A stretch of 64,000 bases of DNA from Cloacibacillus sp. An23 (lineage in GTDB: Bacteria; Synergistota; Synergistia; Synergistales; Synergistaceae), in NCBI RefSeq assembly GCF_002159945.1, contig NZ_NFJQ01000002.1, forward strand, positions 186,001 to 250,000, read 5' to 3'. The position numbers and the translations under genes are program-made. The notes below the pieces were generated by a model, which worked only from the letters and a program-made list of their open reading frames with translations, made no database searches and was not told where the DNA came from. Shown here piece by piece: positions 1,434 to 60,528 of the stretch. Every line of letters starts with the position of its first letter. The stretch's first letter is position 1.

Positions 1434-1735
1434 CGGTCAAAGAGATGTACGCGCGTCTCGACGCGATAGAAAACGAGCTGGACGAGCTGAGCGAAAAACT
1501 TGACATGAACGCCTTTTGCCATAAGTGCAGATACGCGGAGGTTAGGAGCGGTACTAAAGAGATATGCGGCTTTGAGCTGCACTATGAATACCTCGATTGC
1601 CCTTCTGGCCTTTGGGTTGACGCAAAATGCCCTCGCTTTGAGGAGTACAGAGAGACAGAGGCTCGTTTCGACGAGCTTAAACGCGAATACTGCGAGATCG
1701 CAGACTCGCCGGTGAGCGCAGAGGTGACGAACTGA
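1430..1735 (+). CDS. Hypothetical Cys-rich phage protein with coiled coil
   Basis: A 101-residue protein. ATG 1430 overlaps the upstream TGA. Residues 1-27 look like a coiled coil, followed by a Cys-rich middle (CHKC, C, C, C), possibly a metal-binding knuckle, and a helical tail. The stop overlaps the next ATG as TGATG, so the gene belongs to the tightly coupled early operon. Confidence 0.55.
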   Translation: MTVKEMYARLDAIENELDELSEKLDMNAFCHKCRYAEVRSGTKEICGFELHYEYLDCPSGLWVDAKCPRFEEYRETEARFDELKREYCEIADSPVSAEVTN

Positions 1736-2100
1736 TGACGCTGGACAAACTGAAATCGAAGATATTAGTCGCCGCGCGTGAAACGGACGGGGCGGCCTTC
1801 GACCTTCTCCGCTTCGGCACGACCGACGCGGAGGCCGATACGTACACAGTACCGGCCGAGTACGTCCGCAAGCTTAGCGAAAGCCGCATGAAACTCCACG
1901 AGGCGATAGATAAGCTCGACATAGAGCGCGACAAAGAGAAGCTGCGCCCTATCGTGAGCAGATATGAACAGCGCGTGCTCGATGAGCAGCTAGGGCTCCG
2001 CGAGCCGCGTCTAACCATACCGCTCGCAGACGATTATGAAATCGACTGGGATTTTGACATGACGGGGCGCCCTGTCTACAGGACGCACATCGGGAATTAA
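1735..2100 (+). CDS. Hypothetical phage protein upstream of recombination ATPase
   Basis: A 121-residue acidic and basic helical protein starting by TGATG overlap with the previous gene. No recognised domain. It lies directly before the Sak4-like ATPase gene, a common place for recombination-associated small proteins, but nothing in the sequence proves such a role. Confidence 0.5.
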   Translation: MTLDKLKSKILVAARETDGAAFDLLRFGTTDAEADTYTVPAEYVRKLSESRMKLHEAIDKLDIERDKEKLRPIVSRYEQRVLDEQLGLREPRLTIPLADDYEIDWDFDMTGRPVYRTHIGN

Positions 2101-2113
2101 GGGAGGAATTGAA

Positions 2114-3046
2114 ATGGCATTCAGGAAAGCGGAACGCAGACAGGCAAAATTACGGCTCGGGCTCATCGGGCCGTCGGGTTCGGGCAAGACATACGGTGCG
2201 CTTCTTATTGCGCAGGGGCTCGGAGGAAAGATCGCCCTTATAGACAGCGAAAACGGGAGCGGCGAGCTTTACGCCGATATGTGCGACTACGACGTGTGTC
2301 AGCTTGCGCCGGAATTTACGCCGCAGAAATACATAGCTGCTATCCACGAAGCGGAGCGCGCGGGTTACGACGTCATCATCATAGACAGCTTGTCGCACGC
2401 TTGGGCGGGCGCAGGCGGCGTGCTTGAAATGGTGGACAAGCGCAAGGGACGCGGCAACGACTTCGCCGCGTGGCGCGATGTGACGCCGCAGCACAACGCC
2501 CTCGTAGACGCAATGCTGCAAAGCCCGTGCCACATAATTGCTACGATGCGCTCTAAGACCGCTTACGACATGGAGAAGGACGAGCGCACCGGCAAAATCA
2601 AACCGGTCAAGATAGGGCTCGCGCCTGTGCAGCGTGAGGGCATGGACTATGAATTTACGGTCGTCCTTGAGATAGACCAGCAGAAGCACATGGCGGAGGC
2701 TACAAAAGACCGTACGTCGCTCTTCGACGGCGAAATTTTCAAAATCACGCCGGAGACTGGGGAAAAGCTCAGGGCATGGCTTGAGACCGGCCTACCGGCA
2801 GAAACTGTGCGCCCGAACAAAACACAGGCCGCGCCGAAGCCGCTCACCGAAGCCCAGCAGGCACAACGCACGCTTATCGGTATGTTGACCGACGACGCGG
2901 GGCTCGGGCTGCGCAAAGACGAGTGCGGCGCGTGGATAAAACAGACGCTCGGACGCGACATCAAGAGCATGAGCGAGCTCGAGCTCGGGGACATAGAGGT
3001 CTGCATACAGGCAGCGCAGGACGCTATAGGGCGTAAGGTTGCGTGA
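2114..3046 (+). CDS. Sak4-like RecA-fold NTPase (phage recombination ATPase)
   Basis: A 310-residue P-loop NTPase with Walker A GPSGSGKT at residues 19-26 and Walker B in DVIIIDSLSHAW near residue 90. The fold and position fit AAA_24/Sak4-type proteins, which support single-strand annealing or strand exchange together with phage SSB; an SSB gene is present at 11915. The C-terminal third after about residue 240 is a helical accessory region. SD GGGAGG lies before ATG 2114. Membership of the Sak4 group rather than a generic P-loop protein is inferred. Confidence 0.75.
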   Translation: MAFRKAERRQAKLRLGLIGPSGSGKTYGALLIAQGLGGKIALIDSENGSGELYADMCDYDVCQLAPEFTPQKYIAAIHEAERAGYDVIIIDSLSHAWAGAGGVLEMVDKRKGRGNDFAAWRDVTPQHNALVDAMLQSPCHIIATMRSKTAYDMEKDERTGKIKPVKIGLAPVQREGMDYEFTVVLEIDQQKHMAEATKDRTSLFDGEIFKITPETGEKLRAWLETGLPAETVRPNKTQAAPKPLTEAQQAQRTLIGMLTDDAGLGLRKDECGAWIKQTLGRDIKSMSELELGDIEVCIQAAQDAIGRKVA

Positions 3047-3053
3047 TTGGACG

Positions 3054-3082
3054 GTGGCTATTTCCATTTTGGAAATAGCCAC
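3054..3082. repeat. Perfect 13-bp hairpin
   Basis: GTGGCTATTTCCA (3054-3066) and its exact complement (3070-3082) are separated by TTT. It stands alone in the 63-bp gap between the ATPase and the next gene. There is no U tract, so a simple terminator is unlikely. It may be an RNA processing or attenuation hairpin or a protein binding site. Confidence 0.6.
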
Positions 3083-3109
3083 TGATGACTAGATAAGGAG
3101 GAATTAAAG

Positions 3110-3529
3110 ATGAAAAGAGAATGGATACCTTTTCCCGAGGGAGAAATATATGACCCGGTGTTTGAAGCCGTAGCCAGGCGCGCCGGAGTATCAAGAGGCA
3201 AGGCGGTTCTCGTCTACATAATGTTGATAAACCATGTAATGAAGAACGGAAATTCCTGCGACGGACATTATGTCTATTTTGATACTGATACATGTGATGC
3301 AGCGTTTGATTTCGCCGAAGGTACGAGCGCGGCAGTCGTTAGAGCCCTTAAAGACAAGGACCTTATCGACATGGAAGATGGCAGCTGCTGTTTGACAAGG
3401 TGGGTAGACTATGCGTACCTTGAGGCGACCGCATTGGCGGAACAGGATACACGGACAAGGGCAAAAATAGAGCTGGAACAGGAAGAAAAAAGCGCGCCTG
3501 TTTGTCCAACAAGCCAAGAAAAGAATTAA
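3110..3529 (+). CDS. Hypothetical replication-region protein
   Basis: A 139-residue protein starting at ATG 3110 behind AAGGAGG. Residues 15-85 look like a winged-helix fold (GVSRGKAVLVYIMLINHV, then a recognition-like helix and LKDKDLIDME), as in N-terminal domains of phage replication organisers. The C-terminus is charged and helical. It sits between the ATPase and the initiator gene. DNA binding is inferred. Confidence 0.55.
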   Translation: MKREWIPFPEGEIYDPVFEAVARRAGVSRGKAVLVYIMLINHVMKNGNSCDGHYVYFDTDTCDAAFDFAEGTSAAVVRALKDKDLIDMEDGSCCLTRWVDYAYLEATALAEQDTRTRAKIELEQEEKSAPVCPTSQEKN

Positions 3530-3547
3530 AGTCCCTGAGGCCCTTCA

Positions 3548-4603
3548 ATGAGATCGCGATATATAAAACCGGGATTTTTTACCAGTGAACAGCTTGCTGA
3601 GTGTAGCTTCGCCGCCCGCATTCTCTTTGAGGGGCTATGGTGCTATGCAGACCGAAGGGGGAGAATGGAAGATCGTCCTAAGAGATTAAAGGCGGCGATT
3701 TTCCCGTATGACAACGTAGATATTTCCTCGCTTCTCAATGAGCTTATAACCAATGAGCTGATTGTCCGTTATGAGGTCGATGGCAAGCATTACATTTGGA
3801 TTCCCAATTTTCTGCTCCATCAACGCCCCCATCAGAATGAAACGGACAGCATTATTCCGCCTTGCGAGCTTGAGCTAGAAATGGTGCGGAATGGCGCTAT
3901 TAAGCCGGAAGAGGGCGAGCCTAAAAATGCGGCAGGACGGCAGAACAACGCCGAACCATGTCAGTGCAAAGAGCCAAGCACTTGTCCCCAGGGCAATACA
4001 GACTTGTTACCAAGGTGCGAAGCCCTTGCCACCAAGGTCGAAAGCACTTGCGACCATGGCAACAAGCACTTCGCCCTTGAGAACTTGAGAACTGGAGAAC
4101 TTGAAAATACAAATACACGTCCCCTGCCGGAGCCGGGGACTGGCGCTAGCGCGCCCAGCGCGTCGGCGAATGATTGCCCTCACGAGGCCATAATCGGGCT
4201 TTACCACGAGATTTTGCCCATGCTCCCGCGTGTCAAGGTCTGGAACGACTCTCGGCGCTCCATGCTGCGAACGCGATGGCGCGAGGACAAGGCGCGACAA
4301 AACCTCGCGTGGTGGCGGCAGTACTTCGAGACCGTCGCGGCGAGTGATTTTCTCTGCGGCCGATGTCCGCCGGGCAAGTCAAGGCGCCCATTCATGGCAG
4401 ATTTGGAATGGCTGATTAGGCCTGGGAATATGCCGAATGTGCTTGAAGGGCGCTACAAGAATCGCGGTTCCACTCTGCCCTCGTCCACGCCCAAGCCGCA
4501 GGCAAGCCGGGGGGAAGAACCGATGACCTACGAGAACTGTGGCGAAGTGTGGGAATGGGCCCCGTGGCCCGAGGACGGAGAACCGGATAAGGCGGTGAGT
4601 TAG
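3548..4603 (+). CDS. Phage replication initiator (replisome organiser-like)
   Basis: A 351-residue protein. The N-terminal 100 residues resemble the winged-helix DNA-binding domain of phage replication proteins (FTSEQLAECSFAARILFEGL, then YDNVDISSLLNEL). A low-complexity, His/Cys/Asn-rich linker at residues 140-190 is encoded by an iteron array. The C-terminal 140 residues form a helical domain with WREDKARQNLAWW. The arrangement parallels lambda O, whose origin lies inside the initiator gene. The helicase gene starts 4 bp after the stop. The initiator role follows from position, iterons and N-terminal pattern. Confidence 0.65.
   Translation: MRSRYIKPGFFTSEQLAECSFAARILFEGLWCYADRRGRMEDRPKRLKAAIFPYDNVDISSLLNELITNELIVRYEVDGKHYIWIPNFLLHQRPHQNETDSIIPPCELELEMVRNGAIKPEEGEPKNAAGRQNNAEPCQCKEPSTCPQGNTDLLPRCEALATKVESTCDHGNKHFALENLRTGELENTNTRPLPEPGTGASAPSASANDCPHEAIIGLYHEILPMLPRVKVWNDSRRSMLRTRWREDKARQNLAWWRQYFETVAASDFLCGRCPPGKSRRPFMADLEWLIRPGNMPNVLEGRYKNRGSTLPSSTPKPQASRGEEPMTYENCGEVWEWAPWPEDGEPDKAVS
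3980..4067 (+). repeat. Four tandem 22-bp iterons (probable replication origin)
   Basis: Four exactly contiguous 22-bp units lie at 3980-4001, 4002-4023, 4024-4045 and 4046-4067, with a partial fifth from 4068. The shared pattern is (A/C)CTTG, 2-3 variable bases, ACCA, then GG and a variable end, mostly AAGC; each unit contains a CTTG/CAAG dyad. AT-richer sequence with GAGAACT repeats follows (4080-4110). This is the layout of a theta-type phage origin bound by its own initiator. Origin function is inferred. Confidence 0.7.
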
Positions 4604-4607
4604 CAGG

Positions 4608-5783
4608 ATGGAAAGGCCAGTATCGCCGTTAAACATCAAGCAGGCGGGGGCGAAGTTCAACAGGCCTGAAGCGGAAACGCTCGAGCAAATGTGCATTGCG
4701 TTGGGCGAAGAGGCTAAGTGGTGGGCGAGCCGGGGCGGCAAGCCGACGGACATAGCGAAACAGCTTATGACTAGCGTTCGGATGTGCGGGGAGCCTCCGT
4801 TCATCTCTGCGGCCGATGTTTCGCAGATGGCGGTCAACGCTTTCAAGGCGCTAGTAGCCGAACGCCGCAGTATGGGCGCGAAAAGCAATGACCCGGCGCT
4901 GACTGAGCCCAACGACATGAGGGCTGAGCTGAAAAACATGGAGGCCATGATCGACTACCGCACGGAGCAGTTTCACTTCGGCGTTCACGAGCTCGACGAC
5001 GCGATGGGAGGCGGTGTGATGAAGGGCCAGATTATGTCAATCATAGGCAACCCGGGCTCAATGAAAACGTCGCTTCTGCTTTCCGGGATTGAAACATGGG
5101 TAGCAGAAAGCCCCACACCAGTCGCGTTTTTTTCGCTGGACATGGATAAGCCCGCTATATTCGAGCGCCTTATGCTTAGGGAAATGCGCTGTGGGCGGCA
5201 CGTGCTCGTAGACAAGTACCGAGCCGGCGCCGAAGAGTACAAAGCGGCGAAAGAACGCATAGGCAGGCGTTTCTCTGGGCGCATGACGGTGCTGGGCAAC
5301 ACAGACGGCCCCCTCTGGACGATAGACACGCTCGCGAGGTACGTGCAGTTCAATGTTCCGGGGCTCCTGGCTATTGATTATCTGACTCTGCTCAAGAAGC
5401 TTGGACAAAGCGACTATGACACCGTGAACGAATCTATGCTCATGCTGAAAGACCTCGCGCGCCAATACCGGACTGCGATAGTTATACTTTCGCAGATGTC
5501 TATGTCCTCGCGACGCGAACAGGCTGCTGGAGGAATGGGCGGTTCGGCCCGCGGCGGCGGCATCGTTAACGAGCTGGCGGACGTAGAAATTGAGCTGTAC
5601 CGCGATATGTCAAACGACCCAAATGACACCATGCCGAAAATAATTGCAACAATCACGAAGACGCGCAGCGGAATAGCAGGCTCAAGTTGGAAGCTTGATT
5701 ATAACGGCCCGATGATGACCTTCCGAGGAACGGCGCAGCGTGTGTTTCGTAAGCGCAAGACCCAGGTATTCGAGGATGCGTAA
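4608..5783 (+). CDS. DnaB-like replicative helicase
   Basis: A 391-residue RecA-fold helicase. Residues 1-100 are a helical N-terminal region. Walker A is GNPGSMKT at residues 147-154, with Met where most DnaB proteins have Gly; the Lys-Thr pair is kept. Walker B is LLAIDYLTLL near residue 250. The motif ILSQMSMSSR with later Arg residues fits DnaB motifs H3/H4. It is placed right after the initiator, which would load it. The C-terminal end is repeated in degenerate form 61 bp downstream. Confidence 0.8.
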   Translation: MERPVSPLNIKQAGAKFNRPEAETLEQMCIALGEEAKWWASRGGKPTDIAKQLMTSVRMCGEPPFISAADVSQMAVNAFKALVAERRSMGAKSNDPALTEPNDMRAELKNMEAMIDYRTEQFHFGVHELDDAMGGGVMKGQIMSIIGNPGSMKTSLLLSGIETWVAESPTPVAFFSLDMDKPAIFERLMLREMRCGRHVLVDKYRAGAEEYKAAKERIGRRFSGRMTVLGNTDGPLWTIDTLARYVQFNVPGLLAIDYLTLLKKLGQSDYDTVNESMLMLKDLARQYRTAIVILSQMSMSSRREQAAGGMGGSARGGGIVNELADVEIELYRDMSNDPNDTMPKIIATITKTRSGIAGSSWKLDYNGPMMTFRGTAQRVFRKRKTQVFEDA

Positions 5784-17572: not shown

Positions 17573-19038
17573 GCCGCGCCGCACAGCCAAAGTTAGACCG
17601 GGAGACCTTGCGCCGCAGCATTGCGGCTAACTCCATGTCCGGCTTCGTCCGCTATACATATCCGTCATATCTCATGGGCTGGTGCCACGAAGAGATATGC
17701 TTGCGGCTGGATAGGTTTCTCGACGATGTGCGGGCGCGGCGCTCTCCGCGCCTCATTATCTGTATGCCGCCGCGCTCTGGAAAGTCAGAACTGGCCTCGC
17801 GCCGCTTCCCGGCCTATGCGTTCGGACGCGAGCCGAACATCAGCGTTATAGCGGCGTCCTACTCGGCGGACTTGGCGTCGCGTATAAACCGCGACGTGCA
17901 GCGCATAATGGACGATGCTCCATACTTAAGCATCTTCTCTGACACGCGACTCCCAGGGGCTAACGCGAGGACGGGGCGCAGCGGCTACGTCCGCAACAAT
18001 GACATATTCGAGATAGTCGGCCACAACGGCAGTTATCGCAGCGCGGGCGTCGGCGGCGGCATTAACGGAATGGGCGCTGACATTATGATAATCGACGACC
18101 CTTTCAAATCGCGCGCCGAGGCGGACAGCCCGACGATACGGGAAAAGATATGGGACTGGTACACCTCGACGTTTTACACGCGCCTCGCGCCCGGCGGCGG
18201 CATACTCGTCATAGCCACGCGCTGGCACATGGACGACCTTACGGGACGGCTTATCGAGGCCGCGAAGACAGGCGAGGGCGACCAGTGGGAGATAGTGGAC
18301 TATCCCGCCATAGCGACGTGCGACGAAGCGCACCGCAAGAAGGGCGAGGCTCTTCACCCAGAGCGCTACCCGCTCGATCAGCTTATGCGCATCAAGGCCG
18401 CCATAGGCACGCGCGACTGGGAGGCGCTGTATCAGCAGCACCCGACAGTCGAGGGCGGCGCGGTGTTCCGCACTGAGTGGCTGAGGCTGTATAACCCGGC
18501 GGATCTGCCGCAGAGCTTCGACGAAACGATTATCTCATGGGATATGACCTTCAAAGAGGGCGACGACAAGGACTTCGTTGTCGGGCAGGTCTGGGCGCGC
18601 AAGGACGCGCGCTATTTCCTTCTCGACCAGGTGCGGCGGCAGATGGATTTTGTCGCCACTATGGAGGCGTTTGTCGCGTTGTCGCAGAAATACCCGCGCG
18701 CGCTAAAGAAGCTCGTTGAGGACAAGGCCAACGGCCCGGCGGTGATAAGCGCGCTCAAGTCTCACGTGCCGGGAATCGTGCCTATAGAGCCGGACGGTTC
18801 AAAGACGGCGCGGGCTTACGCGGTCACGCCGCTTTTCGAGGCTGGGAACGTATATATCCCCAATCCGTCATGGTGCCAGTGGGCGCGCGAGTATATAGAC
18901 GAGCTGACGCAGTTCCCGACGGCTGCGCACGACGACCAGGTTGACGCTACGACGCAGGCGCTGAGGCAGTTCACGGCGCGCCCGTCTATCCGCATTAACC
19001 CCTCGATACTACAGCCGCGCGGACTATACAGGAGGTAA
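17569..19038 (+). CDS. terL: Terminase large subunit
   Basis: A 489-residue packaging motor. The ATPase domain has Walker A MPPRSGKS at residues 66-73 and Walker B MIIDDP near residue 171. The nuclease domain has its first Asp in ISWDMTF near residue 325 and the DDQVDA motif near residue 455. TTG start 17569 overlaps the upstream stop (TTGA). It cuts concatemeric DNA and pumps it through the portal encoded next. Length is normal. Confidence 0.95.
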   Translation: MSRAAQPKLDRETLRRSIAANSMSGFVRYTYPSYLMGWCHEEICLRLDRFLDDVRARRSPRLIICMPPRSGKSELASRRFPAYAFGREPNISVIAASYSADLASRINRDVQRIMDDAPYLSIFSDTRLPGANARTGRSGYVRNNDIFEIVGHNGSYRSAGVGGGINGMGADIMIIDDPFKSRAEADSPTIREKIWDWYTSTFYTRLAPGGGILVIATRWHMDDLTGRLIEAAKTGEGDQWEIVDYPAIATCDEAHRKKGEALHPERYPLDQLMRIKAAIGTRDWEALYQQHPTVEGGAVFRTEWLRLYNPADLPQSFDETIISWDMTFKEGDDKDFVVGQVWARKDARYFLLDQVRRQMDFVATMEAFVALSQKYPRALKKLVEDKANGPAVISALKSHVPGIVPIEPDGSKTARAYAVTPLFEAGNVYIPNPSWCQWAREYIDELTQFPTAAHDDQVDATTQALRQFTARPSIRINPSILQPRGLYRR

Positions 19039-19041
19039 GGC

Positions 19042-20667
19042 ATGAGCCGAAAACAACGAAAACCAAAGGCGGCATACCGAACGCCGTCGATGAAGATAGC
19101 CGCGGAGGCTTTGTCGTCTCGCGGCGCGGGCGCGGGCGTTCTCACCCCCGGCGCAATCCGCGCCATGTTTCAGCCGTGCGAGACGCTGGGCTTCCGCGGT
19201 GCCGATAACGCCAGGATTGCGCAGGGCGCGGCGCTCGACTCCGCAGGCGTGTACAACCTTTTGCAACACACGCTCTGCAACGGGATGCTCGCCTACGCGT
19301 CGCAGTTTGTGGGCTACGGCGTGCTGTCCAATCTCACGCAGGACGGGCTTATCCGCTCCGGCGTCGAGATGCGTGCCGACGAAATGACGCGCAAGTGGAT
19401 AGAGCTGACGTACAACGGCAAAGACCCGGCGGCGCAGAAAGAGCAGGAGCAGGAAATAGACGGCGGGCTTAACGGCTCGCCTTTTTTGTCGGGCGGCGTT
19501 GTCCCGGTAACGCCGGAGGCAGAGGGCGACAGCATTATCCAGACGCTCAACGGCGAGATGGAGGCGTTCGGGCTGAGGCGGCTGTTCCGCGAGGCCGCCG
19601 CGATGAGCGGCTACTTCGGCGGCTGTCTGGCTTACATTGACGTGGGCGACCTGACCGACGAAGACCTCAAAACCCCGCTGCGTCTTGACGCCGACACGTT
19701 CTCGCAGGGCTCGCTGCGCGGCTTCCGTCTCGTCGAGCCGTTCAACATCGCGCCTGGCTTCTACAACGCGAGCAACCCGGTCTCTGCGAGTTACTTCCGG
19801 CCTGAGACGTGGTACGTGCTTGGCACGGAGATACACGCCTCGCGCTTCCTGTATTTCACCGAGAACCGCCCGCCGACGCTGCTGCTCCCGTCGTACAACT
19901 TCTTCGGCATCCCACTGGCGCAGATTGTGCTCGACGCGGTCACGCACTTCACGAGCTGCCGCGAGGCAGAAGCGAGGCTGCTTACCAAGTTCAGCCTGAC
20001 CGTCCTCAAGACGGATATGCAGGCGGTGCTTGCAGGCGGCGCGAGCGGAGAGATTGACAAGCGCATAAGGTACTTCGTCCAGATGTGCGATAACGACGGC
20101 GTGGCGCTCATAGACAAGGACATGGAAGACATGATAAAGCTCGAAACTCCGCTCTCGGGCGTTACAGACATCGTGCGGCAGGCGATGGAGATAGTCGCGG
20201 CGATGTTCGGAGAGCCGGTCGTCAAGCTCTGGGGCGTCACCCCCGGTGGGCTAAACGCCACAGGCGACGCGGATATGCAGAACCATTACGACCATATCAA
20301 CAGCATACAGGAGAAGATATTCCGTGAGCCGCTGAAACACGCGCTGGACATCTTACAGCTCAACAAGTTCGGCGTTATCGACGACGCTCTGACCTTCACC
20401 TTCCCGCCGCTCGGGGACGACGACGACAAGGCTGTAGCGGACACGCAGCTCGTCAAGGCCAACACTGCGGCGACGCTCTTCGACCGCGGCATCGTGAGCG
20501 GCGAGGAAGTACGCAAGGCGCTCGCGGAAGACCCGAAGAGCCAGTTTACAAACATAGACCCGGGCGCGGAAGTGCCGGAGCCAGACCTCGCGCTCCCGAT
20601 GGAGGGCGCGCAGGAGCCCGGGCGCTCAGACCTTGACGACCGCGACTTCGCCGGACAGGTCTACTAG
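19042..20667 (+). CDS. Portal protein (DUF1073 type)
   Basis: A 541-residue portal of the DUF1073 family, marked by the N-terminal NLLQHTLCNGMLAYASQFVG segment, the central FREAAAMSGYFGGCLAYIDV, and PTLLLPSYNFFGIPLAQ. It forms the dodecameric DNA channel at the capsid vertex and binds the terminase. Starts 4 bp after terL, SD GGAGG. The C-terminus is acidic and variable. Confidence 0.88.
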   Translation: MSRKQRKPKAAYRTPSMKIAAEALSSRGAGAGVLTPGAIRAMFQPCETLGFRGADNARIAQGAALDSAGVYNLLQHTLCNGMLAYASQFVGYGVLSNLTQDGLIRSGVEMRADEMTRKWIELTYNGKDPAAQKEQEQEIDGGLNGSPFLSGGVVPVTPEAEGDSIIQTLNGEMEAFGLRRLFREAAAMSGYFGGCLAYIDVGDLTDEDLKTPLRLDADTFSQGSLRGFRLVEPFNIAPGFYNASNPVSASYFRPETWYVLGTEIHASRFLYFTENRPPTLLLPSYNFFGIPLAQIVLDAVTHFTSCREAEARLLTKFSLTVLKTDMQAVLAGGASGEIDKRIRYFVQMCDNDGVALIDKDMEDMIKLETPLSGVTDIVRQAMEIVAAMFGEPVVKLWGVTPGGLNATGDADMQNHYDHINSIQEKIFREPLKHALDILQLNKFGVIDDALTFTFPPLGDDDDKAVADTQLVKANTAATLFDRGIVSGEEVRKALAEDPKSQFTNIDPGAEVPEPDLALPMEGAQEPGRSDLDDRDFAGQVY

Positions 20668-20678
20668 AAGGAGCGGAG

Positions 20679-22436
20679 ATGGCTGTTAAAAGGACGCTGA
20701 GGGCGGTACGTCCGGCTGCCGCGCTCGAGCGCGAGTACCGCGAGAAGCTGGACAAGCTTATAGACGACATGCAGCGCTCGGTCATCTGGTGGATGCGCGC
20801 TGCTTACCGCAGGCGCGAAAACCAGATAACGCAGGACGCGGGCCCGGCGCGCGACTTGTCGCAGGAGCTGCAGAGCGTCATGCGCGACTGGCTCAAAAAG
20901 TACAACGAGGCCGCTGAGACGCTCGCACAGTGGTTCGCGGATAAGAACTCGCAGCACGTGCGCAACTCCACGCGCGAGGCATTCAAGGCGGCGGGGATAG
21001 CCGAGCTGTTCACGGTCAAATTCCGCTACATGAGCCGCCACGAGCGCGACGTGCTGCAGTCTATCATCATTGAGAACGTCAATCTGATAAAGTCCATACC
21101 TCAGCACTATTTTACGGAGGTGCAGGGGCTTGTGCAGCGGTGCGTGCAGAACGGGCGAGACCTCGGCTATCTGACGGACGAGCTCGGCAAGCGCTACCAG
21201 ATAACGCGCCGCCGCGCTGCAATGATAGCGCGCGACCAGACAAACAAGGCGACGGAGAACCTGTCCCGCGCGCGTATGCAGAGCCTCGGGATAACGAAAG
21301 GCATCTGGATACACACCAGCGCCGGGAAGACGTACCGGCATACGCACGTGGAGATGAACGGCAAGGAGTTCGACCTCTCCAAAGGCATGTACGACAGCGC
21401 GGTGGGGCGCGAGGTGTTCCCGGGGGAGCTGGTGAACTGCTTCCCAGGCAATTCAAAGTTGTATGGACTTCCGTTCGTAGAAAAGCTGTACAGGCGTTTT
21501 TACAGAGGCGAACTGACCGAGCTCGTTACGATAAACGGTGTAGTCCTTAGAGTAACACCGAATCATCCAATACTCACTCTTGAAGGGTGGAAGGCTGCCG
21601 GCCTCGTTGATTGCGGAGATTATATTTTCCAGATAGGCGCTAAGGACAGATACGTCAGAGAACTCAATCGTTATGGGGCTATACCCACATTCGAGAATTT
21701 TTTTGAGGCGTTTGTTGGACATGGTGCTTCTGCCTCGATATTTGGTTGTGCCGAGTGTGACTTCCACGGCGACGTGTCCGATGGCGAAATCGACGTTATA
21801 GATGTCAATAGCTTTTTGACGGACAAAACGAAAACCTCTTTGTTCAAGAAAGGACGCGAGTTCGGTTTCACCAGGTCCGAAGTGAGAGGCATTGCCGGTG
21901 TCCTCTCGGGAGGATGCGTAATGACATCGTTGGCTATGGGGCATTTCTCCGCGACGAGCTTCACGGGCAGCGTGAGTAAGCGCTTGTCTGTATTCCTCGG
22001 TAGTCTCACGATAGCGGAGCTTGTTTGCCTCTTTTCCATTTCTCGGGGTAATCCCAGCTCGCAGAATGCGACGACGAATGACATTGCGGGAACACCCAAA
22101 ATGGCGGGCAATTTCCAGCTCGCTTACGCCGGACTTGTACATGGATATGACCTCATCTTCGGGGACAAGTGTTCTATCATCGGTTCGTCGGTTTCGTGGA
22201 ATGGTGAATCCACGCTTCCTAACATGAATGGAGAGGTTGTCGGGGCAGACCCCCAGCTCTTCAGCAACCGTTTTAAGCATCTTACCTTCGGAGAGACGTT
22301 TTACCGCGTCGTTGATAAGCGCGTCAGTGAATTTTCTGGGCATGTTTATAACCTCCAGACTTCGCTAGGTTGGTATATCGCAGACCATACCGTTGCGCAT
22401 AATTGCCGTTGTACTTATAAACCTATTATATCATAG
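20679..22436 (+). CDS. Mu F-like head morphogenesis protein carrying an intein
   Basis: A 585-residue frame. Extein residues 1-253 and 576-585 make a head minor protein of the phage Mu F/SPP1 gp7 type, with YQITRRRAAMIARDQTNKAT, THVEMNGKEF and the hallmark NCRC, which is exactly where the intein sits. Residues 254-575 are the intein, predicted to splice out and restore PGELVN-CRCTY. The extein after NCRC is short (10 residues), within the variation of the family. Lies between portal and protease/scaffold genes. Confidence 0.88.
   Translation: MAVKRTLRAVRPAAALEREYREKLDKLIDDMQRSVIWWMRAAYRRRENQITQDAGPARDLSQELQSVMRDWLKKYNEAAETLAQWFADKNSQHVRNSTREAFKAAGIAELFTVKFRYMSRHERDVLQSIIIENVNLIKSIPQHYFTEVQGLVQRCVQNGRDLGYLTDELGKRYQITRRRAAMIARDQTNKATENLSRARMQSLGITKGIWIHTSAGKTYRHTHVEMNGKEFDLSKGMYDSAVGREVFPGELVNCFPGNSKLYGLPFVEKLYRRFYRGELTELVTINGVVLRVTPNHPILTLEGWKAAGLVDCGDYIFQIGAKDRYVRELNRYGAIPTFENFFEAFVGHGASASIFGCAECDFHGDVSDGEIDVIDVNSFLTDKTKTSLFKKGREFGFTRSEVRGIAGVLSGGCVMTSLAMGHFSATSFTGSVSKRLSVFLGSLTIAELVCLFSISRGNPSSQNATTNDIAGTPKMAGNFQLAYAGLVHGYDLIFGDKCSIIGSSVSWNGESTLPNMNGEVVGADPQLFSNRFKHLTFGETFYRVVDKRVSEFSGHVYNLQTSLGWYIADHTVAHNCRCTYKPIIS
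21438..22403 (+). mobile_element. Intein (322 residues) in the head morphogenesis gene
   Basis: It starts at Cys (TGC 21438), in CFPGNSKLYG. Block B is LRVTPNHPILT, with the TxxH motif. The C-terminal blocks are HVYNLQTSLGWYIADHTVAH and the final Asn (22401-22403), followed by Cys+1. All four splicing landmarks (Cys1, TxxH, terminal Asn, Cys+1) are present. The loop between the splicing halves is open on the + strand but has no recognisable endonuclease in that frame; an endonuclease gene is encoded on the opposite strand. Splicing is predicted, not shown. Confidence 0.88.
21453..22343 (-). CDS. Antisense homing endonuclease gene inside the intein
   Basis: A 296-residue protein on the strand opposite to the intein. 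The start ATG 22343 has GGAGGT 7 nt upstream on the minus strand. Residues 5-45 and 62-100 are two helix-turn-helix units (MLKTVAEELGVCPDNLSIHV; SELEIARHFGCSRNVIRRRI). Residues 155-230 form a Vsr/EDxHD-like or DUF559-like nuclease core: GETELASFLEQRGF, IYNVDFAIGHVAVEV (Asp, Glu) and KRLKKILECGYSPITIEF. It is a real domain arrangement, not a shadow. It overlaps both splicing halves of the intein. Its job would be to spread the intein. Confidence 0.85.
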   Translation of the reverse strand: MPRKFTDALINDAVKRLSEGKMLKTVAEELGVCPDNLSIHVRKRGFTIPRNRRTDDRTLVPEDEVISMYKSGVSELEIARHFGCSRNVIRRRILRAGITPRNGKEANKLRYRETTEEYRQALTHAAREARRGEMPHSQRCHYASSREDTGNASHFGPGETELASFLEQRGFRFVRQKAIDIYNVDFAIGHVAVEVTLGTTKYRGRSTMSNKRLKKILECGYSPITIEFSDVSVLSAYLENIISAINEAGSLPPFKSEYWMIRCYSKDYTVYRNELGQFASVKTPVQLFYERKSIQL

Positions 22437-24031: not shown

Positions 24032-24706
24032 ATGGCACTACAGAAATCGGTAAATCTTTATCAGGCTGCGGCGGTGCAGGGGGATAGGGCTTCGCAGAAC
24101 CCGTTCGTCTACACTCCGCAGAACTACACCGCAGGGGCGGACATCACTGTCGGCTCGTTCGTCTGGGAGTCCGCCGAGGCTACAGACCCGAAGCAGGTAC
24201 TCAACACCGGTACGGGCGCTCCGCTCGGTTTCGTCGAGCGCATTCTGGCGGTCTATAACTACGACCTGACCTCGGAAGGCACGCTGATAATCCCCAAAGG
24301 CCAGAACGTGACCGCCGTCGCGCTTCGTGGCGACTTCTATATTCCGGCAAATACGACAGTAACCGTCGGCATGGCGGTCTTCGCAAACACGACTACCGGC
24401 GCGGCCACTTTCGCGGAAGCGGGCAGCTCGCAGAGCGGCGCGGTCGAAACGTCGTGGCGCGCTATGACTGCAGGCAATGAGGGCGACATGATAATCATTT
24501 CCAACGAGGCCCCGGTTGTAGCTTCTTCCGGCGGCAGTTCGCCAGACCTCAGCTCTTACGCCAAGGCCGACCTCTCCAACGTGACTGGACAGCTCCCGAT
24601 AGCCAACGGCGGCACCGGCGTGACCGCGGTAGGTACGGCGGGGCAGGTGCTTACCGTCAACAGCGGCGCGGACGGCACGGAGTGGACGACCCCGACCGGA
24701 GCATAA
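24032..24706 (+). CDS. Capsid decoration/cement-like protein
   Basis: A 224-residue protein between scaffold and capsid genes. The N-terminal 150 residues are beta-rich with GSFVWES and ALRGDFYIPANTTVTVG, as in phage structural cement proteins. The C-terminal 40 residues carry a tail-fibre-like repeat, LPIANGGTGVTAVGTAGQVL, seen at the ends of many virion surface proteins. It is likely surface-exposed on the capsid. SD AAGGAGG precedes ATG 24032. Confidence 0.65.
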   Translation: MALQKSVNLYQAAAVQGDRASQNPFVYTPQNYTAGADITVGSFVWESAEATDPKQVLNTGTGAPLGFVERILAVYNYDLTSEGTLIIPKGQNVTAVALRGDFYIPANTTVTVGMAVFANTTTGAATFAEAGSSQSGAVETSWRAMTAGNEGDMIIISNEAPVVASSGGSSPDLSSYAKADLSNVTGQLPIANGGTGVTAVGTAGQVLTVNSGADGTEWTTPTGA

Positions 24707-24730
24707 CGAGAGACAAGGAGTGATAACGAT

Positions 24731-25759
24731 ATGATTAACGTTTCCTTTGAGGCCGCCCGCGAGGGCGGTTTTATTTTCCCGCAGGCGCGCGCGTGGATGA
24801 ACATCAAAGACCACGCCTATATGGAGCAGCTCGCACAGGACGCGGCGCTCATCACCACGCCGAACACCGCCGTCCCTGCTGAAATCCTCGCCTATATTGA
24901 CCCGATGGTCGTCGAGATTCTGACCGCCCCGAGGAACGCGAAGAAGATATTCCCCGAAGTCAAGAAAGGCGACTGGACGACCCCGTACTTCAAGTTCCGC
25001 GTGCAGGAGTACACGGGCGTGACGACGCCGTACAGCGACTATGCCGACGGCGGCGTTGCCGGAGTCAACGAGAACTGGCCGTCCCGCGAGCAGTATATAT
25101 TCCAGACGACCATCAAGTACGGCGACCTCGAGTCCGACATGGCCTCCGTCGCGAAGATGAATCTCGCTTCGGAGAAACAGAAGGCGGCGGCGCGTATTAT
25201 CGAGATAGACTCTAACCGTTTCTATCTCTTCGGCGTGCAGGGACGCGAAATATACGGACTGCTCAACGACCCGAACCTCAACGCCTCGATAACGGCGGGC
25301 ACAGCCGCAACCGGCGGCGGCACGGAGTGGGCGGACAAGACCGCCGACGAGATATATAACGACGTGCTCGCGCTCGCGGCCTCGCTGCGTCAGAACTCGC
25401 AGGGCAACATCACCGAGGACACGCCGCTCGTGCTCGTACTCTCGCCGCAGAGCAATTCCCAGCTCGGCAAGATTAACCAGTTCGGGCTCTCCGTCCGCCA
25501 GATGCTCAAGAACGAGTACGGGGACAGGCTCGACTTCGTAGAGCTGCCGGAACTCTACAACGCGACGAGCGGCAACACGATAATGCTCATCGCGAAGGAA
25601 ATCCTCGGTATACCGACGGCGCAGCTCGCTTTCGGCGAGAAGTACCGCGCGCTCCCGGTCGTCCGCGAGCTGTCCAGCTACAAGCAGAAGGTCACGGCGA
25701 CGACCTACGGCGCGATAGTCTATTACCCGTTCGCGATAGCGACGATGGAAGGGCTCTAA
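24731..25759 (+). CDS. Major capsid protein (DUF2184)
   Basis: A 342-residue major capsid protein of the DUF2184 (gpE-type) group, recognisable by the central YGDLESDMASVAKMNLASEK, RFYLFGVQGREIYGLLNDP, and the C-terminal LVLVLSPQSNSQL...REL. Shell subunit with HK97-like fold expected. ATG 24731 behind AAGGAG. Position after cement and before neck genes is standard. Confidence 0.85.
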   Translation: MINVSFEAAREGGFIFPQARAWMNIKDHAYMEQLAQDAALITTPNTAVPAEILAYIDPMVVEILTAPRNAKKIFPEVKKGDWTTPYFKFRVQEYTGVTTPYSDYADGGVAGVNENWPSREQYIFQTTIKYGDLESDMASVAKMNLASEKQKAAARIIEIDSNRFYLFGVQGREIYGLLNDPNLNASITAGTAATGGGTEWADKTADEIYNDVLALAASLRQNSQGNITEDTPLVLVLSPQSNSQLGKINQFGLSVRQMLKNEYGDRLDFVELPELYNATSGNTIMLIAKEILGIPTAQLAFGEKYRALPVVRELSSYKQKVTATTYGAIVYYPFAIATMEGL

Positions 25760-25792
25760 TAGAGCCTTGATACAACAGGGGGTGCGCACACT

Positions 25793-51858: not shown

Positions 51859-52172
51859 AAAAAAAATATATATCCACGGCGGAAGCTGTACGAATGACTG
51901 GGCTGTCTCAGGGGCACATCTCGAAGATGTGTCGGAACGGGAAAATCCCTGGCGCTATATTGATAGGTAACTCTTACGCCATCCCACTGGAATGGGCTGA
52001 TGCCGCCGTCAGGCTGAAAGAGACGACCGTCTCAATAAACGAAGCCGCGGAGCTTGCCGGAGTAACACGAGGGGCAATAATGCTCGCTGCCAAAGAGGGG
52101 CGGCTTGTAAAAATACAGCATAGGATAACTAGAGATTCGTTGGCCAGATACATAGAACGAAGGATAGGATAA
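51849..52172 (+). CDS. Excisionase-like helix-turn-helix protein
   Basis: A 107-residue protein (GTG 51849) with two MerR/Xis-type helix-turn-helix units: ISTAEAVRMTGLSQGHISKM, CRNGKIPGAI, and SINEAAELAGVTRGAIMLAA, KEGRLVKIQ. Last gene of the operon and 650 bp before the integrase gene, so it may assist excision or regulate integration. Confidence 0.7.
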   Translation: MAVEKKYISTAEAVRMTGLSQGHISKMCRNGKIPGAILIGNSYAIPLEWADAAVRLKETTVSINEAAELAGVTRGAIMLAAKEGRLVKIQHRITRDSLARYIERRIG

Positions 52173-52201
52173 GGCGGCGTTAGAAATTACCCCGCCGCCT
52201 T
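52171..52201 (+). terminator. Hairpin ending the prophage-type operon
   Basis: AAGGCGGCG (52171-52179) and CGCCGCCTT (52193-52201) form a perfect 9-bp stem; the following sequence is A/T-rich but not a clean U tract. Confidence 0.6.
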
Positions 52202-52745
52202 AAAAAATGTTTTCCCGAATTTAAACACGGCACAAGAGCGGCACAAAGAAAAATAATGAACATATAAGACTAGGTACAATCAGCTATTATGCAAATTTTT
52301 ATGGTGTGCCTTTCCCGCACCAATTTTCTACATTCAGGCAACATTTCCAACTTATTAAACAAAATCAGTGTCTATCATAAATTCTGAAAAAGTTAGTAAT
52401 AGAGCGGCTTCGTAGAGTGTTAGTTGGATTTTTAAAAAGATTACTTTATGTAAATATAGAACAACTAGCGTTAACTAAGATGTCATGCTTTTAGTCAAAC
52501 AGTAGTAAGAAAATCGCAGTAGAAAAGTAGTTTTTAATGTGTTACTAAATTCCTGGGAAATGTTGGTATGAGTGAGTTTTTCCATGAAATAGTAGAAAGA
52601 AAATCAGACACCCTTAAATTATGTGCCATACTGACTTTTATGCTGAATTTAGACGGTTTATGAATGCGGAATTTCAAAAAGACAAGATGAGATAAATCGC
52701 TATAGCTTAATATAAGTTTATTTTTTAATATTTTATAAAAAATAG
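52202..52745. other. AT-rich intergenic region, possible attachment region
   Basis: No convincing gene in this stretch. Composition drops sharply from GC-rich to AT-rich near 52200. The direct repeats CGGCACAAG (52228-52236) and CGGCACAAAG (52239-52248) look like integrase arm-type or attachment repeats. One edge of the prophage is likely here or just after the integrase, but no second attachment copy is visible in the window. Confidence 0.4.
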
Positions 52746-52774
52746 TTGACAAATATAAAATGTGTAGATATAAT
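52746..52774 (+). promoter_or_regulatory. Consensus promoter of the integrase gene
   Basis: TTGACA (52746-52751), a 17-bp spacer and TATAAT (52769-52774): a full sigma-70 consensus 48 bp before the integrase start. Confidence 0.85.
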
Positions 52775-52821
52775 ACTTACAAGTTTGAAAAATTCTGAAA
52801 TACATAAAGGAGCATGAAATA

Positions 52822-54075
52822 ATGAATTTGACAGACAAGGAAATAAAAGCGATAAAACCAGTGAACAAACCGAAATATAAAAGTGACGGTAATGGACTGT
52901 ATATTTATGTTTCCCCTATTAAAGTAGGTGGAAGGGTTTCGTACCACTATAAGTGGATGTATCGTTATACAAGCCCTGTTACAGGACAACAAGTTTGGTA
53001 TAAAGGGAAGATTGGTGATTATCCTAATGTGTCCTTAAAAGAAGCAAGGCAAATAAGGGGAGAATTGGCTAGGAGTAGTGACCCTAATGCGGAATTGGAA
53101 AGGAAAAAAAAAGAGGTAATTTTAGAACGTATAAAGTCATTTGAAGATGTTTTTGATATATGGTATGAATATTGGCGCAAAACTGTAGCACCAACTACAG
53201 AAGAAAAAATCATGTCCCGATATAACTGCCACATAAAGACCAGTAAAAACAATAAAAAGCTAATATGTGACATAACCACTTTAGATATTTCAACAGATTT
53301 AAACAAGCTAAGTGCCCCTAGTGCCGAAAAGGTCAAGGGAATATACAATATGGTTTTTACGTTTGCTATCAATGAGGGGTATGGTATAGATAGAGAGGGA
53401 AAGACTATTATTAATCCAGTGCCCAAAGGAACACTGCTTTCACATCGTACATATACAGAAAAGAAGCACCCTGGTATCACAGATAAAGAAAAGTTGCCTA
53501 ATCTCATAAAAAATATCTATGGCTATAGTGGTAATCCTATTGTTAGAGGGGCGTTGATTTTTCTTTTGCATTGTGCAACGAGGAGTAGTGAGATGCGTCA
53601 TATCAAGTGGAGGGATATAGATTGGGAAAATAAGATAATTACAGTACAAAATACAAAAAACAAACATAGTTTGAAAGTTCCTATGAGCTGTCAAGTTGAA
53701 GATATGCTTAACGAACTGAAAGTCATTAGGGGCAATTCTCTGAAAATTGATGATTATATTTTTCATAAACGTGGAGATTTTAAGACACCAATAAGCAATG
53801 TAACGACAAATGCGGCTTTACAGTTGATGGGATACGATACACATAAAGAGCATACTACTCATGGCTTTAGAACGACATTCTCAACGTTTGCTCATGAAAT
53901 GTGGGATTCAAAATATGGGCGTGAAATTATAGAGAAACAGTTAGACCACGTAGTTGGAACAGGTGTTGCTCGAATATATGACGAATCGGAACATTTGGAA
54001 TGTCGAAGGGCGTTATTACAAGATTGGAGTAATTTTCTTGATGAGATAGGATATAGTAAAAAAGCAGTTGCTTAA
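52822..54075 (+). CDS. Tyrosine integrase (P4 type)
   Basis: A 417-residue integrase: N-terminal DUF4102 arm-binding domain (NLTDKEIKAIKPVNKPKYKS, IGDYPNVSLKEARQ), a core-binding domain, and the catalytic domain with Arg in ATRSSEMRHIKW, HTTHGFRTTFST (His-x-x-Arg) and the nucleophile Tyr in GVARIYDES. All catalytic residues except an unassigned Lys are seen. AAAGGAG lies before ATG 52822. AT-rich unlike the phage genes, so it may belong to the neighbouring island rather than the prophage. Contains an A9 run near 53104. Confidence 0.92.
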   Translation: MNLTDKEIKAIKPVNKPKYKSDGNGLYIYVSPIKVGGRVSYHYKWMYRYTSPVTGQQVWYKGKIGDYPNVSLKEARQIRGELARSSDPNAELERKKKEVILERIKSFEDVFDIWYEYWRKTVAPTTEEKIMSRYNCHIKTSKNNKKLICDITTLDISTDLNKLSAPSAEKVKGIYNMVFTFAINEGYGIDREGKTIINPVPKGTLLSHRTYTEKKHPGITDKEKLPNLIKNIYGYSGNPIVRGALIFLLHCATRSSEMRHIKWRDIDWENKIITVQNTKNKHSLKVPMSCQVEDMLNELKVIRGNSLKIDDYIFHKRGDFKTPISNVTTNAALQLMGYDTHKEHTTHGFRTTFSTFAHEMWDSKYGREIIEKQLDHVVGTGVARIYDESEHLECRRALLQDWSNFLDEIGYSKKAVA

Positions 54076-54111
54076 TTTTTTATATTATAGGTAATTAAAT
54101 AAAAAATACGA

Positions 54112-54175
54112 GGGATATATCGTTATTTGTGTTCATTATAAAAGTTATTGTTATCGATATATCCCCCTATCTTTT
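54112..54175. terminator. Inverted repeat after the integrase
   Basis: GGGATATATCG (54112-54122) and CGATATATCCC (54155-54165) are perfect complements 32 nt apart, followed by CCTATCTTTTTT. Either a long-loop terminator or a recombinase binding dyad between the two recombinase genes. Confidence 0.5.
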
Positions 54176-54202
54176 TTAGAAAGGAGACTACTTGGTTATT
54201 TA

Positions 54203-54889
54203 ATGTATAAAGCATTAGATAATAAGGATAGAAACTCTATATTTACTTCTTCTGACCTTGATGCGATTTTTGCTAATCAAAACTATAGGAATAAAATATA
54301 TGATAAAAGATATGCGTTGTGGCTGTCTCTATTGGCTTTATACACAGGGGCAACATTGCATGAACTGTATAATTTGCGTTTTAATGATGTTGTTATCGTT
54401 GATAATGTTTTGTGTCTAAAACTTACCAATAAAAATAAATCATGTAGAGTTATTCCATTGCATCGTTTTGTTATAAAATTTGGCTTTTTGTATTATGTAA
54501 AAGATATAATGTCTATATTTGATACTAATGGTTTTTTATTTGAAAAATATAGTTTATTAAATGATAATGTTGATTTTAATAATGAATATAAAACATTTAA
54601 TCGTTGGTTTAATGAAAGATTTTTAGTCACAATAAGAATTAAAAGGCCAGGTTTATGCTTTTCTAGCTTTAGAAAGACGTTTATGAATGCAGCATTATCT
54701 TCTATTTCTGAGACAAATAGAATGCAAAATAAAGACTATATAACTTTAATAAATCAATATATGGGAATAACCAGAATATGCTTCACATCTCATGCAAATT
54801 TCGTTAAACAGTATCCTCCTTTTGTTTTTAAGAGTATTTTGTCTAATATCTGTTTCAATTTGCCGCTAAACATTAAAAATATCATATAA
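54203..54889 (+). CDS. Degenerate tyrosine-recombinase-like protein
   Basis: A 228-residue protein resembling only a recombinase catalytic domain: LALYTGATLHELYNLRFNDV matches the TG.R..EL..LRW.D box but with Thr in place of the catalytic Arg, and FSSFRKTFMNAAL matches the HxxR box without the His. No clear Tyr nucleophile. Very AT-rich. Probably inactive as a recombinase; a DNA-binding accessory or decaying gene. Confidence 0.6.
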   Translation: MYKALDNKDRNSIFTSSDLDAIFANQNYRNKIYDKRYALWLSLLALYTGATLHELYNLRFNDVVIVDNVLCLKLTNKNKSCRVIPLHRFVIKFGFLYYVKDIMSIFDTNGFLFEKYSLLNDNVDFNNEYKTFNRWFNERFLVTIRIKRPGLCFSSFRKTFMNAALSSISETNRMQNKDYITLINQYMGITRICFTSHANFVKQYPPFVFKSILSNICFNLPLNIKNII

Positions 54890-54960
54890 TAATATTATTG
54901 AATTAACGTTATATAACTATTGTTTAAATTTTAAAAATTTAGTAAAACAAAGAACACACA

Positions 54961-55000
54961 TAATAAAAAGCGGAATAAATTGCTATTCCACTTTTTATTA
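54961..55000. terminator. Bidirectional terminator
   Basis: AATAAAAAG-c-GGAATA and TATTCC-a-CTTTTTATT pair with one opposed mismatch, with A and T runs on the two sides. It separates the convergent genes ending at 54889 and 55070. Confidence 0.85.
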
Positions 55001-55069
55001 TATAGATATATGAAGTTTCTTGGTTATAAATTTTCAGATTCTAACGGTATTACGCTATTCTGATTTACA

Positions 55070-55762
55070 TTATAGTATTGTTATTATTTCCATTTCATCT
55101 GCATCTTCACACTTCTTTCGTATCTTTTCAGCCTCTTCTTGCAATATTCCGAGAACGCAGTCTCTTAATTCGCCGTATTCTTTCATCGAGAGAGTAGGAA
55201 ATTTATCTTTATTGCCTTCGCTGAATGCATCTCTGACGGCGCTACTTACACCTTTACCGGAGCTTCCTGTTACATATCCTGGCTTGGCCTTAATATCTGC
55301 ATCAAATCGATATAACATTATATAGTCATCTTCTGTTTCCTCTTCGCCTGTTAGTATTTTTCTGGCTGTAACAGATATTATTTCCTCATTGCCCAGTATC
55401 TTGTCGAACTGCTCTTCTAGTTCATCAATGGTAGTTTCGTCAGGCGCTATGCTGAATATTGCTTTAGATGTACTACAGTGTGGCATAAATTCGTCAAATT
55501 CTTGCGGGTAGTCCCCTATTCTTACAACTACATTCTTATACATGTCGTTCTCCGCCAAATTCACAAACTCGACATCATAATAGGCCGTGTTGTTTGAACG
55601 GCTGCGGATGCTTGTATTGAGCTTATAGGTTATCTCACCTGCATATTTTGTATCAAGCAGCCGTTCCAAATCTTGGGCGTTCTGTTTAACAAATATCTTG
55701 TTTGAGTAATATCTTTCTTTCCCTTCTATAGACTGCAATAGGAGGGTGTTTGTTAGGGACAT
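55070..55762 (-). CDS. Hypothetical protein of the AT-rich island
   Basis: A 230-residue protein (ATG 55762, SD AAAGGAAG). Mixed alpha/beta N-terminal part, an acidic middle and a helical C-terminus (YGELRDCVLGILQEEAEKIR). No signal peptide or membrane segment. I do not recognise a family. The first of a run of minus-strand genes from 55.1 to 59.1 kb. Confidence 0.6.
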   Translation of the reverse strand: MSLTNTLLLQSIEGKERYYSNKIFVKQNAQDLERLLDTKYAGEITYKLNTSIRSRSNNTAYYDVEFVNLAENDMYKNVVVRIGDYPQEFDEFMPHCSTSKAIFSIAPDETTIDELEEQFDKILGNEEIISVTARKILTGEEETEDDYIMLYRFDADIKAKPGYVTGSSGKGVSSAVRDAFSEGNKDKFPTLSMKEYGELRDCVLGILQEEAEKIRKKCEDADEMEIITIL

Positions 55763-55931
55763 AGCTTTCTTCCTTTCTTCAGTTGCTTGTCAAAAACACA
55801 TAAATTAACGATGATTTCTGTTGCTTTTTAGCCTGTTTTCGCACAAAATTAGGCGTTTCTAGGCACTTATTTTATCAAGAGGATAAATGATGCCTCTCTG
55901 GAAAAAGACATGCCTTATTTTTGATTTTCTG

Positions 55932-56552
55932 CTACTCAAGCATTGTATCTTTTTCGGCGGACTTCTTTTCTTCCAACCATTCGAGATATTCGCAGTATTC
56001 ACTGGCGAAGGCGAAGTCAAATCCGGAGCCGTCGCTTAAATTCTCCCAATCGAAGTCATAACGTTTATCTGGAGATGCTTTGAGCTTTAGCACTATATGT
56101 CCTTCTTCGTCGTCTTCTGCGACACAATCATGTATTCCGATGAGTACAGTATCGTCATGTGCATATGTCCTATAGCTGAAACAAACTGGGGCGTTTAGTA
56201 TATCCGACGAAAATATCATGCTTCTGCTGATACTCGTCAAAAGAGAATGAATAAGCAAATATTCGTACTGGAATCCCTCTAATACTATTTTTGCATCCAT
56301 CAAGTCGTTTATACAGTATTCAATCCTGAATACCCTGTCTTTTGTCTGATGATACGCACCGTCATAGAGATAACCGCCTCCGCACCTTCTGGGCTTTACG
56401 TTATGCTCTTTGCCGTCTGTCCCCATATAGCTGAACACTACATAGGGCATAAGCCCTTTAGCCTGTAATTCATCTTTTGGGATTGCATTTATCACTTCTG
56501 GAATACGGGCTTTTAGTTCTTTGACTGTCATGATTTTCTTGGTATTGTCCAA
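55932..56552 (-). CDS. Hypothetical protein of the AT-rich island
   Basis: A 206-residue soluble protein; TTG 56552 with AAGGGG about 9 nt upstream, or ATG 56532. It begins with a short helix-rich TVKELKARIPEVINAIPK, then a beta-rich middle with RRCGGGYLYDGAYH, and ends with a Glu/Lys-rich helix. No recognised domain. Confidence 0.58.
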   Translation of the reverse strand: MDNTKKIMTVKELKARIPEVINAIPKDELQAKGLMPYVVFSYMGTDGKEHNVKPRRCGGGYLYDGAYHQTKDRVFRIEYCINDLMDAKIVLEGFQYEYLLIHSLLTSISRSMIFSSDILNAPVCFSYRTYAHDDTVLIGIHDCVAEDDEEGHIVLKLKASPDKRYDFDWENLSDGSGFDFAFASEYCEYLEWLEEKKSAEKDTMLE

Positions 56553-56611
56553 TGTACATAGCCCCTTTCTGAATGTGTCTAATGTTCAAAGCCTATATAG
56601 TCTCTCGTTAT

Positions 56612-57088: not shown

Positions 57089-57158
57089 TATTATGCACGA
57101 CCCCTTCTATTTTTTTCTATACATTCCAAAATGTTTTGTTTTTGTAAATTCTTTGAGG

Positions 57159-57731: not shown

Positions 57732-57779
57732 ACGGAACCCCCCTTCTATCTTGTGTTTGTTGTATCCGGTTCCTGTATG

Positions 57780-58523: not shown

Positions 58524-58524
58524 C

Positions 58525-60223: not shown

Positions 60224-60237
60224 CGACAGAGCGGATT

Positions 60238-60483
60238 ATGAAACATAAACACTTGACGGACATAGAACAAAGACATCTTAAAAAAGTAAGAAGAAAATTA
60301 CGGGGATATGAAAGAGTGATGCTTCGCAGCGGCTTTGTCGCCTCTAGGGCTGAAATTGAATGGTCGGTGAAAGAAATTACAAACAGCCCAGCCGATAAGT
60401 ATTTGGGAATAGAGGACGCCATCGTCATTAAGCGTGGGCTAGAACAATTTAAACAGGGGAAATATAAGGGCAACTGGCAATAG
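60238..60483 (+). CDS. Small hypothetical protein
   Basis: An 81-residue basic helical protein 14 bp downstream of member 2, with HLTDIEQRHLKKVRRKLRGY at the N-terminus. There is only a weak SD before ATG 60238. It sits between two members of the family and may be its partner. Not recognised. Confidence 0.5.
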   Translation: MKHKHLTDIEQRHLKKVRRKLRGYERVMLRSGFVASRAEIEWSVKEITNSPADKYLGIEDAIVIKRGLEQFKQGKYKGNWQ

Positions 60484-60528
60484 GACAACTCAAACTTGCC
60501 AATAATAGCTTTTGAAAGGACTGATTTG

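Follow-up and report, generated by a model that had tools for sequence, protein, structure and literature searches.

The window analysed here is a stretch of 64,000 nucleotides from Cloacibacillus sp. An23, in which a MuF-like head morphogenesis gene is interrupted in frame by an intein, and a second gene, predicted to encode an endonuclease, lies on the opposite strand within the intein DNA (Table 1). The intein interrupts MuF between VN and CRC and has the complete set of splicing residues, i.e. Cys1, the TxxH motif (TPNH), block F, a C-terminal His-Asn and Cys+1 in CRC. Pfam Intein_splicing matches it at 1.4e-5, which is below the curated cut-off of Pfam, and a profile of the intein family searched against solved inteins found the KlbA intein (2jmz) as its best match (2.6e-10, in two stretches). 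No in-frame endonuclease was recognised by domain profile search in the + frame loop of the window intein, and the MuF frame is continuous, with host gene and intein unsplit, in the window and in the loci examined. Among 35 MuF inteins the N-terminal splicing half is short, with TxxH at residues 38-41, and the residue preceding the terminal Asn is Ser in 21/35 and His in 11/35, the window intein having His. Elsewhere in the window, in the part from ~52000 to 64000, G+C drops from ~0.56 to ~0.35 near 52 kb, which resembles the edge of a prophage or island.

Table 1. Features of the interrupted MuF gene and of the gene antisense to its intein (positions in the window)
Feature	Position	Strand	Basis or remark
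MuF-like head morphogenesis gene with in-frame intein, 585 codons	20679..22436	+	Phage_Mu_F 8.5e-7; phrog_324 3.5e-67; phrog_15127 2.4e-96
N-extein, 253 codons, last residues GELVN	20679..21437	+	insertion site common to all relatives
Intein, 322 aa, Cys1 to Asn322	21438..22403	+	conserved catalytic residues; matches to solved inteins
Block B TPNH, intein residues 40-43	21555..21566	+	T40 and H43 invariant
Intein loop facing the endonuclease core, behaving as an open spacer on +	21636..22271	+	codon-position pattern follows - strand
Block F GHVYNL; its reverse complement contains most of the endonuclease Shine-Dalgarno, and the ATG	22338..22355	+	
C-extein CRCTYKPIIS and stop	22404..22436	+	
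Antisense endonuclease gene, 296 codons and stop	21453..22343	-	fully within the intein
Endonuclease Shine-Dalgarno GGAGG	22352..22356	-	8 nt before ATG; conserved in relatives
First helix-turn-helix unit, residues 7-43	22215..22325	-	HTH_Tnp_1; structure model
Second helix-turn-helix unit, residues 62-95	22059..22160	-	HTH_7; structure model
Nuclease core, residues 157-238, with E159, D185, E194, R212	21630..21875	-	I-Bth0305I by profile and fold; conservation
C-terminal beta hairpin, residues 257-295, facing intein blocks A-B	21459..21575	-	model, block pLDDT ~90 or more

In the antisense pairing of the two genes, codon positions meet as 1-3, 2-2 and 3-1, and residue i of the endonuclease faces residue 303-i of the intein. 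Profile search of the minus-strand protein gave HTH_7 (8.4e-6), HTH_Tnp_1 and DUF559. A single-sequence model of the protein was poor (pLDDT 51), and a model based on an alignment of 25 sequences was used instead (mean pLDDT 87.7), which has a pair of helix-turn-helix units at its N terminus, joined through a helical linker to an alpha/beta nuclease core, and a beta hairpin at the C terminus. The best solved relative of the core is the catalytic domain of I-Bth0305I, both by profile (1.9e-7) and by Foldseek comparison of the core model (E 3.3e-4, probability 1.00). E159, D185 and E194 are conserved in the endonuclease family, with the sole exception of Thr at 159 in Gordonia phage Malisha, while the His of the EDxHD motif is present only in some clades. 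A defence-system search with PADLOC gave only a marginal match, to a helix-turn-helix stretch (0.0073), and a defence-system identity was rejected on that ground. Nothing above chance was found in a search for an antisense promoter. In 27/35 loci the translation start lies exactly 60 nt inward of the intein end, and the Leu of block F is encoded by CTC in 26/32 cases versus 92/558 in exteins, a preference by which GAGG is favoured in the antisense RNA.

The first-pass annotation had described a head morphogenesis gene with an intein on the + strand and a 296-codon gene on the - strand, and both open reading frames (585 and 296 aa) are present exactly as claimed; the complete intein at NCRC, with Cys1, TxxH, terminal Asn and Cys+1, was likewise confirmed. 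Its proposal that the antisense gene has a Shine-Dalgarno sequence of its own and two helix-turn-helix units agrees with the GGAGG, with the HTH_7 and HTH_Tnp_1 matches and with the model, and the nuclease it had read from the letters found its counterparts in DUF559 and I-Bth0305I. The EDxHD label held in part: the sequence data fit EDxHD as the nearest relative, with the Glu/Asp/Glu core conserved, while membership is not proven, the His being absent from the window's clade.

Antisense open reading frame length was considered as evidence for the second gene and set aside as too weak. Open antisense frames are common in this GC-rich phage, and the antisense frame stays open in 15% of inteins resampled with phage codon usage, against 0.5% on permutation of the codons of the intein itself; hence length alone says little. 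Two other long antisense frames, of 583 aa (24038-25789, -) and 307 aa (19024-19947, -), lie opposite other phage genes in the window, and are probably due to codon usage.

Comparative tests were made with 35 non-redundant loci having the intein/antisense arrangement, in which the codons TTA, CTA and TCA form stops on the antisense strand. Among Leu/Ser codons of these loci, such antisense-stop codons number 0/1,510 in the loop (0/1,388 in its middle and 0/122 just before block F) versus 208/992 in the N-exteins, a contrast with a Fisher p of ~1e-90, related loci not being fully independent. In the non-overlapped final 20 codons of the intein the count is 35/121, and in the block A-B zone it is 16/292, which fits with the endonuclease genes' own ends being located there. 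Substitutions were counted in five separate pairs. Changes at codon positions 1, 2 and 3 number 335, 218 and 637 in the exteins, versus 360, 123 and 224 in the intein loop by + strand positions (p ~3e-25 over the five pairs for the reversed pattern); loop changes fall mostly at + position 1 because this is the third position of the endonuclease codons. Blocks A-B and the non-overlapped tail retain the codon-position order of the + strand.

When the intein protein was kept and its synonymous codons were randomised, the score against an endonuclease profile built without the window sequence fell from 333 to at most 161 bits, and when the endonuclease was kept and its synonymous codons were randomised, the intein score fell from 273 to at most 186. 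Thus, neither protein is a mere shadow of the other. Each strand nevertheless casts a partial shadow: the conserved FHGD of the intein is the reverse complement of the endonuclease VAVE, and TPNH stands opposite MIRC. Computation establishes both genes, and constraint on both strands.

By tblastn, the intein query found 120 phage records and the antisense protein query 125, which are nearly the same set; in about 120 phage records the matches to the two proteins coincide in position but lie on opposite strands. Moreover, 41 further locus records fetched by the endonuclease alone, with narrower endonuclease alignments as queries and some of them duplicating each other or loci obtained earlier, all face an open frame with an N/C junction. 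The intein-bearing loci belong to phages of Enterobacterales, Pasteurellales, Vibrio, Pseudomonas and Gordonia, and also to a Zixiibacteriota MAG and a Chloroflexota plasmid record. Other Synergistota genomes (the host phylum) gave matches to short helix-turn-helix or nuclease stretches and not to the intein/antisense arrangement. None of the intein-bearing phage records inspected carries an annotation of the antisense gene, including those in which the intein is annotated. As judged by sequence comparison, the predicted double coding recurs, mostly unannotated, in phages and prophages whose hosts span several bacterial phyla. A different intein occupies the same MuF site in Gordonia phage Nordenberg (L088, MuF gene 1502-4609), with TxxH ~70 residues after Cys1; it has a more usual N-terminal length and no match to the antisense endonuclease family. 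A single MuF site would seem to have received inteins of two different kinds.

In Acinetobacter phages IME285 (L010) and P1068 (L014) the endonuclease is free-standing, on the opposite strand beside an uninterrupted MuF gene. It is convergent with MuF and ends within the last MuF codons with an overlap of a few bases, and the frame antisense to it contains 12 stops. This is the only annotated form of the endonuclease family that we met. In a midpoint-rooted tree the Acinetobacter endonuclease falls within a group of intein-borne relatives (97/86 with L037), and for this reason it most likely left an intein, i.e. the free-standing form would be derived. The resemblance of its tail to the overprinted tails is suggestive only of homology, as 104/2,000 shuffles scored as high.

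Intein-bearing and intein-free phages with an exact in-frame junction were found as the pairs KpTDp1/BUCT_49532, PST-H1/S106 and Snoke/Bas74; for the phage of the window itself, the closest relatives yielded no such empty site. The inteins of Snoke (E. coli) and PST-H1 (Salmonella) are 97.7% identical, and the N-exteins differ at 52% of third positions. For KpTDp1/BUCT_49532, similarity is 74-90% over the first 200 bp upstream of the site versus 92-98% in the more distant flank, and this lower similarity near the site is expected from co-conversion. The intein is sporadic, as 58/407 related MuF records cover the intein-bearing query, and 8/74 in the Klebsiella group. The exact empty sites and the near-identical inteins in diverged hosts indicate mobility of the related elements, and the homing-like behaviour (sporadic occurrence, horizontal spread, flank co-conversion) was observed in relatives of the window element. 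In another pair of loci, L002 and L003, the inteins are one nucleotide apart, and the upstream flank stays similar over ~350 bp, beyond which it is unrelated.

Three other explanations were weighed. The antisense frame could be a by-product of an intein with few TTA, CTA and TCA codons, its similarity across phages mirroring the conservation of the intein, as the chance long antisense frames of the window phage, the 15% of resampled inteins that stay open and the part of each profile score shared by the other strand would allow. However, the stop-forming codons are missing from the loop and yet common in the exteins and the non-overlapped tail, the substitutions follow the - strand, synonymous randomisation halves the endonuclease profile score, and the product has a nuclease fold and a free-standing homologue; we regard this explanation as refuted by the codon counts, the substitution pattern and the randomisation, and give it practically no credence. 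Constraint on both strands was found where the first-pass annotation had proposed a two-strand substitution check, and profile, fold and substitution data all support its picture, in which one strand codes for predicted splicing and the other for a Vsr/EDxHD-like nuclease. Neither of the outcomes that it had named as refuting, homologous inteins with the same loop but with no antisense gene and no constraint on it, or a minus-strand protein matching no nuclease, was seen.

If the antisense gene is a real nuclease, its main role may still be other than homing, e.g. exclusion of co-infecting phages or regulation of late genes. The protein is rich in helix-turn-helix units, a rival phage would also be excluded if one of its essential genes were cut, and the free-standing copy persists without an intein in Acinetobacter phages. 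Nevertheless, the endonuclease is nearly exclusive to one intein at one site, its distribution is sporadic with transfer between diverged phages, the nearest solved relative is a homing endonuclease, and the PADLOC match is weak, which leaves such a role improbable. Less probable again is a reading of the arrangement as an intermediate stage, or a derivative, of the fractured genes in which a free-standing endonuclease lies between split-intein halves. The nuclease type is related and is associated with an intein, but the MuF frame is unbroken in the loci examined, the antisense arrangement is widespread and stable, and the one free-standing case, beside an uninterrupted MuF, is nested in intein-borne ones. 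The suggestion of the first-pass annotation that the locus is an intermediate towards the split-intein arrangement is not supported: the arrangement is stable across many phages and the free-standing relative looks derived.

The best explanation, to which we give a probability of about 0.87, is a mobile homing intein whose endonuclease is encoded antisense in its own DNA, and for which we infer splicing, antisense transcription, cleavage and homing. The + strand would give a MuF precursor, from which the intein would splice out to leave a capsid protein of 263 aa, and the - strand would give the 296-aa endonuclease as a separate protein, whose own start site lies within the block F codons. The helix-turn-helix units would bind an uninterrupted MuF gene, e.g. 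in a co-infecting phage, the EDxHD/Vsr-like core would cut the NCRC site of the intein-free MuF, and repair off the intein-bearing copy would install the intein and the endonuclease gene together. The DNA is partitioned such that the endonuclease core faces the dispensable intein loop and the N-terminal splicing half faces the C-terminal hairpin of the endonuclease, with the last 20 intein codons free of overlap. Head-gene transcription runs in the direction opposite to that of the endonuclease gene, so that, speculatively, the latter could be expressed only at another infection stage.

More tentatively, and with somewhat more doubt than belief, we propose a widespread class of intein with the endonuclease fully antisense to the splicing domain, in which the ribosome-binding site and start lie in block F, the C-terminal hairpin is overprinted on the N-terminal splicing half, and the endonuclease has left the intein in Acinetobacter phages. 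If true, overprinting of an intein would have supplied part of a new independent protein, the Acinetobacter phage endonuclease.

Antisense genes that overlap completely, and of which both products are conserved, are rare and often a matter of dispute. At this locus both products belong to recognised families and constraint is measurable for each strand; natural controls are at hand in the free-standing endonuclease, the empty sites and the same-site intein that lacks the antisense gene, and E. coli is a host of related phages. The arrangement separates endonuclease expression from splicing and adds a way to organise a homing element, and it brings to light a gene family missed by annotation.

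No published intein with an antisense endonuclease was found in the accessible literature, the scope of which ends short of a 2025 preprint on actinophage inteins. The title of that preprint, by Gosselin et al. on actinobacteriophage inteins, bioRxiv 10.1101/2025.01.02.630785, reportedly announces a non-canonical architecture. It is cited for overlapping reading frames in actinobacteriophages (PMC11855218), and its survey may cover the element of the Gordonia phages and so describe part of the present finding already.

Dassa et al. are said to have reported in 2009 fractured genes with split inteins and free-standing endonucleases. Like those, the window element has a nuclease of a related type that is associated with an intein but unfused to it; unlike those, its host gene and intein are unsplit and the endonuclease overlaps the intein fully in antisense. 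The ShiLan insertion in a phage methylase hides an HNH endonuclease out of frame on the same strand (PMC11855218). Both ShiLan and the window element place a homing endonuclease in a frame other than that of the host gene and keep the host frame open, whereas ShiLan uses the same strand, is of HNH type, and has no splicing domain and no ribosome-binding site found (PMC11855218). With I-Bth0305I and the EDxHD/Vsr-like homing endonucleases (PDB 3r3p; PMC3943268), the window endonuclease shares the core and its joining to DNA-binding modules, but its helix-turn-helix units are N-terminal to the core, it is antisense to an intein, and the His is unconserved in its clade. As in canonical inteins with a nested endonuclease, blocks A, B, F and G surround an endonuclease-coding region between B and F, the insertion falls at a conserved site of the protein and the distribution is that of homing; in contrast to them, the window endonuclease is a separate protein of the opposite strand, whose gene extends across blocks A and B.
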